Origin: Nitrospirota bacterium | Lineage (GTDB): Bacteria; Nitrospirota; Thermodesulfovibrionia; Thermodesulfovibrionales; UBA6898 | Assembly: GCA_016214855.1 (NCBI GenBank) | Contig: JACRMT010000010.1 | Span: forward strand, 62,001-126,000 | Direction: 5' to 3' | Length of the DNA: 64,000 nucleotides | Shown: positions 51,895 through 55,615 of the stretch, piece after piece | Layout of the letters: each line of letters starts with the position of its first letter | Position numbering within the stretch: the first letter of the stretch is position 1 | Made by a program: the position numbers and the translations under genes | Notes under the pieces: generated by a model | What the model saw: only the letters and a program-made list of their open reading frames with translations | What the model was told of the DNA's origin: nothing | Databases searched by the model: none

Positions 51895-52005
51895 ACAAGT
51901 CTCTCTGTTACCAGGTTTTCAGATTTACACGTATCTAAGAATAGCACAAGAGAGAGTCAACGGCCAATGCCTCACGCGCAGGAGAGGTCAAGCTATTGGC
52001 ATATA

Positions 52006-52082
52006 GCCTGAGCCGCAGTTTGGCAATAAAAAAATCGTTTGCAAATAGGCCACCGTTTCCTTAGAATAAGCACGGCTCAGGC
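52006..52082 (+). repeat. Inverted repeat in the leader of the cytochrome gene
   Basis: GCCTGAGCCG (52006-52015) and CGGCTCAGGC (52073-52082) are perfect 10-bp complements separated by 57 bases, about 60 bases before the ATG at 52143. Weaker complementarity continues on the outer flanks. In RNA it would form a long stem in the 5' leader; it could also be a protein-binding site. The ~250-base gap holds no other recognisable feature. Confidence 0.5.
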
Positions 52083-52142
52083 AGTATATCATATTGTTTT
52101 TTATAGATTTATTAAGAATCTTAATATCGGGGGACAAATGCC

Positions 52143-55100
52143 ATGAAATCCGGGGACAGCTGTTTTTCCGCCTTAACTGAATTAATCAAGTATTCCTGTC
52201 ACACTGCTGCAGCGCTATTCTTTTTTATTGTCACCGTCTCGTTTACGACAGCAGCATACGGCGCAAATACGACAAGTGTCGGCACAGTAACCGCAGAGGC
52301 AGTGGGGACCACAGCCATCAGGGTATTCATGCCCTATACCGGAGATGACAATGCCAACAATACCTATACCGTTGATTACAAGACATGCGCAGCCTCGACA
52401 TGGACAAACTGGGTGACAAACGCAGCACACAGTGCATCGCCCTATACGACTGCCATAAGCGGACTGATCAATAATCAGTGTTACACGGTAAGGACAACGT
52501 ACACGGATAGTGACGGCATAAACGGAAGCAATCCCCAGACGATCCAGATCTCGGCCGGCTGGGACCTCACACTGCTGCATAACAGCAACCGTTTCCCCGG
52601 GACAACAAAATGGTCAGGCGACTGGGGTACGCCGACAGGCCAGTACGGCCAGATAGACTGTGAAACCTGTCATACCAGGACAACTGCCAACATAAAACGG
52701 GTAAAGGACGCGGTAATTACAGCTCCGAATGCCCCTGCGCAGCGTTTCTCTGCAGAAACAGCGGGGCAGGCCCCGGTATTTCAGAGCACTACAACGCCAA
52801 ACGGTTTTGGTGATGATACCGCAGGCCATGCAACATCACAGAAGATATGCGAAGTCTGCCACAGCGCAACCAGCTATCACCGCTATAACACATCAGGCCA
52901 GACGAATCTTGACCATAATAATAATACGGACTGCATCACCTGCCATCCCCATAGCCTCGGCTTTAAGGATGCTTCAGCCTGCAACAGCTGCCATGGAGCT
53001 CCTCCCGGCAGCGGCACCGATACAAACGCACCTGCTGTATATGCTGCATCGCACGCCAGGCACTATAATGCCGTTTCAGGGGGCCTGCCTTCCAGCTACA
53101 CATCTGTGGCAAACCGTTCGACAGCAGCCGGTTATGTCTTTGACTGCGGTATCTGTCACAGCAACAATAATTCTGACCATCTTGCAAACCAGGATGGAAC
53201 TGTTGACCTGAAACTGCCAACGGGAGGAACGTATGCACCGGGGTCTTATACAGGCGGGGATAACCCCTTGCCTCCGGGTTCGGTCACTTTTAAGAACTCA
53301 AACGGCACCTGCTCGAACGTGTACTGTCACGGAAATTATCCCGGCAGCGGCAAAAACGCAACGCCTACCTGGGGAAGTGCTGCCAGCAGCGCCTGCGGAA
53401 CGTGCCACAACGGATCGAACTCTGTTTCTCCCACCAGTGGTTCTCATTTCGTTCACGCAGGCAGCGGGGAGCATGACTACGCATGTACCATGTGCCACAA
53501 GGGGATCATTGGCGGCACGGGACCATCTGGCTACACGGTCAATGACAAAGCAAAACATGCCAACGGCTCTATCGAATGGAGCTTTGACCCGGCTGATATG
53601 AGGGTTAACAACGGCTCAGCCGCCTATAGCATTGCAAGCGGGACAGTATCTCCTTCAGACGGGACAATACGCACATACGGCACCTGTAACAATCTCTATT
53701 GCCACAGTATCGTGCAGACATCTACCGGCGGGGCGCTCACGCCGAATTCTGCCGACTACAAACCTCCGGTATGGGGCAGCACCTCTGTCTGCAACAGCTG
53801 CCATGACACAGGCCCAGGGGTTCATTACTATAACAACCCTGCTCCTGCGGGTGCGCCATGGATCAGCAGCGGTTCACATTCAAAGCATCTTTCCTACATA
53901 TTCACCGTTACCACGACGATCGCACCTGGCGACTGGATCGATAAATGTGCCGTCTGTCACAGCACCGGAAACGGAAGTCTTGATCCGAATTATTGTACAA
54001 AGTGTCATAACGGCTATCCTGACCCATCGCACGCAAACGGTGTCATCAATGTCCGTTTTGCCGATCTCTTCGGAGGCGTGGCTGCTACATACAATGATCC
54101 GACAGGGGCACCGGCAAACGGTTTTACCAACTGCTCAAACACCTATTGCCACAGTGACGGCACATCAATTTCGACCGGCACTATCCCGGTAAATATCTCG
54201 CCAACCTGGGGAGCAGGAGCTCAGGCCTGCGACAGCTGCCATAGCGGAGGCACCGTGACCGGTCCTTCATATGCTAACGGGACCCCGAAAAAGAACAGCC
54301 ATAATAAACATGTAGTTGAAAGCGGCTACGCATGTGTTGATTGTCATGACCTGACCGTGGACGCTTCCAACAATATCCCGAGTTTTGGATTGGTATATCA
54401 TCTGAACAAGGCATACAATGTACGAGGCGCTAAAATAGCCGGCTATACCTTTGCTGCTAACGGCGGCACCTGCTCGACTCAGTGCCATAGTGATGGCAAG
54501 GGCAATTACACTGCCCCCGCCTGGGGCGGTCTTCCTATGGGCTGCAATAGCTGCCACGGCTTTGCGCCTAACAGCGGGGCCCACGCTTCACACATACAGA
54601 ATGCCGGTCTGCTTTCGCAGATCTATGGAAGCACTGAAGTGGTATCAAATGCAGCGAGCTATGCGTTTGGCTGCGGCAACTGCCACCCCACTAATGTTGC
54701 AAATCACGGCAACGGCATCGTTGATCTGAGCCTGAACCCTGCTGATGGCGGTACTCTGAAGAGCAGAAATTCCGGGCCTTCGGTCAGCGGCGCAGGTGCT
54801 GCCCTTCAATGCAACGGGATCTACTGCCACAGCAACGGCATGGCGTCTCCGACCTTTGTTCAGACGCCGCAGTGGGGCAGCACGTTCACGGCAGGGGCCT
54901 GCAGCGGCTGTCATGGCAACTCACCCAATAGCGCAGGGCAGCCTGCCGGATCTCCGGCGCACGGCCTGCATGTGGTCGGCATACATTTCGACAATATCTA
55001 TAACGGCACAAGCGGGCTGGCTGCTGCCGGCACACCAGTTTCAGCCAGCCATGGCAGTGCAGCCTCATCAACAACGATCAACTGCAATATATGTCACTAT

Positions 55101-55502
55101 AATACGGTCACAACTGCTTCAAATGACCTCAATACCGTCTGTTTGAATTGTCATAATGGAATCCAGGCAACAGAGCGGGGCATTGCTGTTATTGCAGACA
55201 AATCATTCCATGTCAACGGTACACCGGATATTGCACTGCAGACAATTCAGGTTAAGTCAAAGAGCCAGCTCAGAGATGACATAACGACTGTCAATGAACT
55301 GAACAACAACTGGTCCCGTTCTGCCCTCAGCTACAAGGCGGGTGCAACACCGAACGATACTGCCATCAGCGCGCTGAACACGGGAACGATGTGGACGGCC
55401 GGGACCAGGACCTGTTCAAACGTTTCGTGTCATAACGGCAAAAATGTTGCATGGACAGAAAGCGTGAACTGCAGATCATGCCATACTCAACTGCCGCAGT
55501 AG
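52143..55502 (+). CDS. Large extracellular multiheme c-type cytochrome (24 heme motifs)
   Basis: A 1119-residue protein. A long signal sequence (about 1-41, ending FTTAAYGA) is followed by an FN3-like beta domain (about 42-140). Twenty-four heme motifs then run from residue about 173 to 1114. I count 18 CxxCH, five CX4CH (CSNVYCH, CNNLYCH, CSNTYCH, CNGIYCH, CSNVSCH) and one odd CX3CH (CSTQCH). The CX4CH motifs start repeated modules of the form CX4CH...PxWG...CxxCH, as in the Geobacter CxxxxCH/CxxCH family. There is no membrane anchor. It is probably exported and used for extracellular electron transfer. A GGGGGA lies upstream of the ATG. Confidence 0.9.
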   Translation: MKSGDSCFSALTELIKYSCHTAAALFFFIVTVSFTTAAYGANTTSVGTVTAEAVGTTAIRVFMPYTGDDNANNTYTVDYKTCAASTWTNWVTNAAHSASPYTTAISGLINNQCYTVRTTYTDSDGINGSNPQTIQISAGWDLTLLHNSNRFPGTTKWSGDWGTPTGQYGQIDCETCHTRTTANIKRVKDAVITAPNAPAQRFSAETAGQAPVFQSTTTPNGFGDDTAGHATSQKICEVCHSATSYHRYNTSGQTNLDHNNNTDCITCHPHSLGFKDASACNSCHGAPPGSGTDTNAPAVYAASHARHYNAVSGGLPSSYTSVANRSTAAGYVFDCGICHSNNNSDHLANQDGTVDLKLPTGGTYAPGSYTGGDNPLPPGSVTFKNSNGTCSNVYCHGNYPGSGKNATPTWGSAASSACGTCHNGSNSVSPTSGSHFVHAGSGEHDYACTMCHKGIIGGTGPSGYTVNDKAKHANGSIEWSFDPADMRVNNGSAAYSIASGTVSPSDGTIRTYGTCNNLYCHSIVQTSTGGALTPNSADYKPPVWGSTSVCNSCHDTGPGVHYYNNPAPAGAPWISSGSHSKHLSYIFTVTTTIAPGDWIDKCAVCHSTGNGSLDPNYCTKCHNGYPDPSHANGVINVRFADLFGGVAATYNDPTGAPANGFTNCSNTYCHSDGTSISTGTIPVNISPTWGAGAQACDSCHSGGTVTGPSYANGTPKKNSHNKHVVESGYACVDCHDLTVDASNNIPSFGLVYHLNKAYNVRGAKIAGYTFAANGGTCSTQCHSDGKGNYTAPAWGGLPMGCNSCHGFAPNSGAHASHIQNAGLLSQIYGSTEVVSNAASYAFGCGNCHPTNVANHGNGIVDLSLNPADGGTLKSRNSGPSVSGAGAALQCNGIYCHSNGMASPTFVQTPQWGSTFTAGACSGCHGNSPNSAGQPAGSPAHGLHVVGIHFDNIYNGTSGLAAAGTPVSASHGSAASSTTINCNICHYNTVTTASNDLNTVCLNCHNGIQATERGIAVIADKSFHVNGTPDIALQTIQVKSKSQLRDDITTVNELNNNWSRSALSYKAGATPNDTAISALNTGTMWTAGTRTCSNVSCHNGKNVAWTESVNCRSCHTQLPQ

Positions 55503-55543
55503 AATTGCGCAGGGAGCAGGAACTTACACGAACGTATTTGCGG

Positions 55544-55570
55544 CGGCTCAAGCCGGGTCAGGGCGCCCTG
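55544..55570. terminator. Two small hairpins between convergent genes
   Basis: CGGCT-CA-AGCCG (55544-55555) and the palindrome CAGGGCGCCCTG (55559-55570) lie between the ends of the cytochrome and mlaE genes. Neither is followed by a T-run, so termination is only a guess. Confidence 0.3.
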
Positions 55571-55615
55571 CCATCTGCCAAAGAAAACATGATTCGCTGA
55601 AGGTCCTGTTGTTGT

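Follow-up and report, generated by a model that had tools for sequence, protein, structure and literature searches.

A 24-motif cytochrome of the CxxxxCH/CxxCH family from Nitrospirota, with a probable FN3-like head and a conserved CX3CH site

The gene described here encodes a multiheme c-type cytochrome with 24 heme motifs, which is clearly, by its sequence, a member of the Geobacter-type CxxxxCH/CxxCH family (TIGR01904, PF09698) and also contains c7-type stretches (PF14522). In one of its repeated units, a CX3CH motif stands where CX4CH would be expected. Related sequences suggest that this unit takes CX3CH in place of CX4CH as a regular and conserved variant, and the evidence for this is new here.

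Gene and motif inventory

A scripted count over the 1119 aa gives 18 CxxCH, five CX4CH (CSNVYCH 390, CNNLYCH 515, CSNTYCH 664, CNGIYCH 890, and CSNVSCH 1091), and one CX3CH, exactly as an earlier note on this DNA had counted by eye. The motifs take up 48 of the 52 cysteines, the other four being found in the signal peptide (two) and the head (aa 82 and 113); it is therefore very unlikely that the CX3CH arose by chance. For the 24 hemes there are 28 non-motif histidines; 27 of these can be compared with the orthologue of a sister species (G002), which keeps 26. The two proteins are 82% identical overall, with a dN/dS of 0.10 over 973 codons. Counted from aa 170 on, the residue-to-heme ratio is 39.5.

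The predicted signal peptide, identified by eye, ends between AYG and A, as it does in the sister-species orthologue. Inspection of the cytochrome sequence revealed no outer-membrane anchor, lipobox Cys, or C-terminal anchor. The features are collected in Table 1, with coordinates in the window, that is, the whole 64-kb stretch of DNA that was analyzed.

Table 1. Features of the cytochrome gene and its surroundings (window coordinates)
Feature	Position	Strand	Basis
Segment absent from the corresponding site in G002 (3643 bp, cytochrome plus flanks; 88 bp instead)	51972..55614		BLASTN
Ribosome-binding-like GGGGGA, ATG 8 nt on (putative)	52129..52134	+	Sequence; inference
24-motif multiheme c-type cytochrome gene, 1119 aa	52143..55502	+	Open frame; TIGR01904, PF14522, and PF09698 matches
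Predicted signal peptide, aa 1-40; hydrophobic core ...TAAALFFFIVTVSFTTAAYG, then A at +1, no lipobox Cys	52143..52262	+	Sequence inspection; orthologue retains AYGANTT
Probable FN3-like head, aa 41-138; Cys82/Cys113 (possible disulphide)	52263..52556	+	PF00041 match of one homologue, fold model, PDB matches
Link with LHNSNRFPGTTKWSGxWG and first heme CETCH (aa 173)	52557..52787	+	Kept in relatives of the order
c7-like stretch, hemes aa 236, 264, 280, 335	52788..53282	+	PF14522 match at 228-284
Unit 1: CX4CH 390, CxxCH 418, CxxCH 448; His 435, 438, 472	53280..53654	+	Motifs, profile match, unit alignment
Unit 2: CX4CH 515, CxxCH 550, 602, 618	53655..54101	+	Motifs, profile match
Unit 3: CX4CH 664, CxxCH 696, 731; His 720, 723, 753	54102..54440	+	Motifs, orthologue comparison
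Unit 4: CX3CH 777, CxxCH 801, 844; His 814, 817, 855	54441..54779	+	Motifs, slot survey, orthologue, unit alignment
CSTQCH (CX3CH), aa 777-782, at the CX4CH position of unit 4	54471..54488	+	Identical in G002 orthologue; nearest homologous units CX4CH
Unit 5: CX4CH 890, CxxCH 920, 981, 1000	54780..55382	+	Motifs, profile match
Unit 6 (short): CX4CH 1091, CxxCH 1110; C-terminus plain, no anchor seen	55383..55499	+	Motifs

Heme units

The array can be sub-divided into a c7-like part (aa 216-380) and the units that follow, each headed by CX4CH or CX3CH. Three profiles score far above their cut-offs: TIGR01904 of NCBIfam (164.6 bits against 27, E 3.1e-49, six stretches), PF09698 of Pfam (83.5 against 21.7, E 1.6e-23, five stretches, all over the cut-off), and PF14522, cytochrome c7 (87.4 against 24.8, E 5.4e-25, five stretches). 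The CX4CH...PxWG...CxxCH unit and modular build that the earlier note had proposed are thus real. The P/S/TxWG element occurs in four CX4CH-led units and one CX3CH-led unit; a short sixth unit is present besides.

Among the fetched sequences, 32 units fit the strict pattern CX3-4CH...PxWG...CxxCH...HxxH...CxxCH...Hx(N/D)G, and an alignment of 21 units shows no variation at the Cys, His, P, W, and final G positions. A strict unit therefore supplies three heme motifs together with three additional His, as many as bis-His ligation needs.

An origin by internal duplication had also been suggested; the repeats are genuine, and we can add that the duplication is old. The best non-orthologous match of every unit lies in another protein, never within the cytochrome (e.g., unit 1, 55-60% to other proteins versus 35% inside the cytochrome), so the duplication must predate the split of the paralogues, and recent internal repeats are ruled out. 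Once Cys and His are masked, only some pairs of units remain alike (U0-U4, U1-U4, U1-U3, and U1-U5, p 0.003-0.023).

In the PDB, the unit profile gave many weak multiheme matches that track CxxCH composition (UndA, E 1e-5), and we did not count these as homology. A model of two heme units, built from an eight-row alignment that excluded the relatives from the genome search, reached a pLDDT of 32, and for this reason no heme geometry was taken from it.

The FN3-like head

The FN3-like domain that had been noticed before the first heme is backed less by sequence than by fold. Pfam gives no FN3 match (PF00041) for this protein, though one of three homologous heads matches PF00041 at E 0.007, and PF25059 at 0.0019; Cys82 and Cys113 are invariant across the three homologues. 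When aa 41-163 are modeled from the single sequence, seven strands result, at low confidence (pLDDT 50). FN3 domains make up almost all of the PDB matches to this model (best E 4.7e-4; TM 0.69, normalized by target length), and the modeled head is therefore probably of FN3-like fold. Among the relatives found, the full head is restricted to the host genome and two proteins of the sister species, and the link behind it (LHNSNRF...WG...CxTCH) is more widely spread.

The CX3CH site

CSTQCH opens a complete CX4CH–PxWG–CxxCH–HxxH–CxxCH–HxNG unit, with CX3CH in the CX4CH position. At this slot, the nearest homologous units carry CSTISCH, CSNISCH, and CATISCH, and the G002 paralogue has CSNISCH at the aligned place. 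As these are all CX4CH sites, the simplest history would be that a CX4CH site lost one residue before the sister species split. A sequencing slip is ruled out, the motif being identical in the second species.

The fetched relatives possess 989 CX2CH, 216 CX4CH, and 29 CX3CH motifs (CX3CH, 29/1234). In the slot before PxWG...CxxCH, there are 106 CX4CH, eight CX3CH, and two CX5CH (CX3CH, 8/116), the regular expression for the slot also catching 34 CX2CH places that are mostly other motif pairs. The eight CX3CH cases are the cytochrome, its orthologue (L036), and six proteins of the order (L044, L058, L046, L061, L065, and L068). The two CX5CH sites (TCGSATACH, ACATAVGCH) are in L068 4223-9952 (-), near aa 502, and L005 1002-7073 (+), aa 996. 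From these sequences, linkers of 3 to 5 residues may be accepted in the CX4CH slot of the unit.

The earlier note had taken the CX3CH to break the pattern and to be either non-functional or special. The comparison does not support this as it was put, given the complete unit, the recurrence of CX3CH, and its conservation in the sister species. Heme was found by LC-MS/MS on both the CXXXCH and the CXXXXCH of MmcA (PMC11024163), and ImcH homologues have a conserved CX3CH too (PMC6295460). With these precedents, the conservation in the orthologue, and the dN/dS given above, we read CSTQCH, from sequence and by analogy, as a live heme site. It is improbable that the site is dead, a relic that no longer binds heme: it is one residue away from the CX4CH of its nearest homologous units, as a relic might be, but the sister species, although 18% of residues differ, still has the identical two Cys, His, and linker residues, unit 4 retains its three further His, CX3CH is found again at the same slot in other proteins, and MmcA carries heme on such a motif.

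A CX3CH is also seen outside this unit. A 7+1 heme cytochrome has CX3CH (RPxCxLxCHxxG-like) as its last site in each of the eight full-length copies that were fetched: L035 5106-6248 (-), L048, L057, L061, L066, L069, L071, and L073.

Genomic setting and relocation

All other frames of 90 aa or longer in the 64-kb window contain one CxxCH at most, and no porin or secretion gene adjoins the cytochrome; the porin and second cytochrome that mark PCC/PCC3 loci are absent. The description of a stand-alone gene, with neither porin nor second multiheme frame, accordingly holds across the window. By sequence inspection, the opposite-strand neighbors encode an ABC-auxiliary lipoprotein, MlaD, MlaF, a PilT-like ATPase, and a DUF4388 protein, then MlaE, STAS, RsbW, and RsbU.

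In the sister species, the same eleven neighboring genes are found in the same order with no cytochrome, and only about 170 bp separate DUF4388 from MlaE. This empty site was defined by comparing 51895-55615 of the window with L097 8480-8653 (the Mla/PilT/DUF4388/Rsb block). An operon with the Mla neighbors is ruled out, as they lie on the opposite strand and the sister species lacks the cytochrome there.

The G002 orthologue is located elsewhere, split over two contig ends, with a tyrosine-recombinase-like gene about 3.5 kb away, and the DNA upstream of the orthologue has no resemblance to that of the window. It possesses a deletion of about 63 codons and a frame change after aa 974 (L036 13245-13490 (-)); the broken frame may represent a pseudogene or an assembly error. 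Comparison of the two genomes suggests that the gene changed place as a single unit, and this relocation is new here.

Paralogues and relatives

Three proteins of the host genome score over the PF09698 cut-off: the cytochrome and its paralogues at C10:44840-48385 (23-site) and C11:415-3972 (27-site). A scan of named genomes returned a single distant match, in a Nitrospiria bacterium (29%). The match to L039 is at 49% over aa 218-851 of the cytochrome, and in L039, L042, and L062 the same heme units are fused to beta-helix, Calx-beta, LamG-like, SBBP, or Big_2 domains. About 26 heme motifs each are present in L039 7642-16164 (+), of 2841 aa, and L042 6459-14540 (+), of 2694 aa, partnered by beta-helix/Calx-beta or SBBP/TSP3/LamG-like domains. 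Two further frames, L065 3206-11488 (+; 2761 aa) and L066 5166-13598 (+; 2811 aa), carry at least 50 heme motifs each.

The 27-site paralogue belongs to a cluster (L035 1-14000, on C11 of the host genome) that also includes a 7+1 heme cytochrome, two tetraheme OmcE-like cytochromes, an 8-heme protein, NHL-repeat proteins, a PPIase, and a possible 625-aa outer-membrane protein. One OmcE-like cytochrome matches PDB entries 7tfs and 9yuq (E 1e-17 to 7e-19). Entry 7tfs is OmcE, and the names of the cluster partners are presumptive. The cluster looks like a cytochrome-nanowire locus.

Proposed role

We think it probable that the protein works as an electron wire: an exported c-type cytochrome, TIGR01904/PF09698 in type, with all 24 motifs hemylated and the FN3 head positioning it. 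Sec would export the protein, with removal of the signal peptide, and a system II synthase would place heme on every motif, CX3CH included. The c7-like N-terminal part and about five 3- to 4-heme units with their own distal histidines would align the hemes, electrons would hop along the resulting chain of bis-His hemes, and the small, adhesion-type head outside the heme array would bind or position the protein. The host genome encodes a ResB/CcsB homologue (C3, 310.9 bits; cut-off, 24.6) and the type II secretin GspD (C2, 519 bits; cut-off, 351).

We think a cell-surface location more likely than a free periplasmic one because close relatives fuse the same heme units to surface-type domains; beta-helix, Calx-beta, LamG-like, SBBP, and Big_2 domains are typical of surface proteins. 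For a wire, we count the profile scores, the kept histidines, the purifying selection shown by the dN/dS, the invariant unit residues, the ResB and GspD homologues, and the FN3-like fold of the head, and also that the 27-site paralogue adjoins OmcE-like, NHL, PPIase, and 7+1-heme genes. Against it, we count that only one near-orthologue was found, with its frame broken near the 3' end, and that the gene is alone, with anchor, lipobox, adjacent porin, and adjacent secretion gene all absent.

The same plain signal peptide and soluble architecture, without an anchor or adjoining porin, would suit a periplasmic electron store or shuttle (a capacitor) whose FN3 head docks to an envelope partner. 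We hold this to be the lesser possibility, though one to be taken seriously, as the large beta-rich surface-type domains of close relatives and the type II secretin in the genome speak against it. A subunit of an OmcE/OmcS-like filament, to which the paralogue in the OmcE-like cluster might point, is very unlikely, since the whole-protein PDB search did not match the solved nanowires (OmcE/OmcS), the NHL/PPIase partners are missing beside the gene, and the large multi-unit design is unlike small polymerising subunits.

The electron-wire reading can be extended, doubtfully, to one in which the CX3CH would be a selected heme with a potential of its own, usually one per large cytochrome of the order, that sets the direction or rate of the wire, and in which a single-gene wire would move between sites self-sufficiently.

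Comparison with known systems

The closest likeness, judged by description, is Ga0056053_03448 of Geoalkalibacter ferrihydriticus (1208 aa, 24 heme sites), which has nearly the same size and plan but two N-terminal FN3 domains and a gene downstream of a 38-heme OmcV-like gene (PMC12016550). The combination of FN3 and 24 hemes is therefore not new. Like GSu_C4xC__C2xCH proteins (PF09698/TIGR01904), the cytochrome has several CxxxxCH...CxxCH units and scores far over the cut-offs; it differs in one CX3CH-for-CX4CH unit and the added FN3 head. It shares a chain of roughly 3-heme modules and an above-cut-off PF14522 match with the c7-type multidomain cytochromes (GSU1996 type, PDB 3oue), whereas TIGR04257 (c7-type triheme nanowire) reached 17.9 bits, under its 40-bit cut-off, and 3oue was the sole match of the whole-protein PDB search at E 2.3.

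MmcA of Methanosarcina acetivorans, likened here by motif, has one CX3CH and one CX4CH, but is heptaheme, OTR-related, and matured by archaeal machinery (PMC11024163). The large multiheme cytochromes of PCC3 are similar in their many hemes, low residue-to-heme ratio, repeats, and richness in small residues; their clusters require a porin and an inner-membrane protein, neither of which is at this locus (PMC5566968). The CxxxxCH/CxxCH family was already known, and CX3CH had been counted among heme motifs before (PMC10734462, PMC5566968).

Implications

Heme-motif counts that leave out CX3CH miss likely heme sites in cytochromes of the TIGR01904/PF09698 type. Homologous units with CX4CH and CX3CH offer a clean case for measuring how heme attachment and potential respond to a single linker residue, and the 7+1 heme cytochrome, with its strictly conserved CX3CH, would be a good test protein for heme attachment. 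For the Nitrospirota, a lineage whose electron-transfer proteins are little studied, the finding adds a well-conserved, FN3-headed 24-heme cytochrome.
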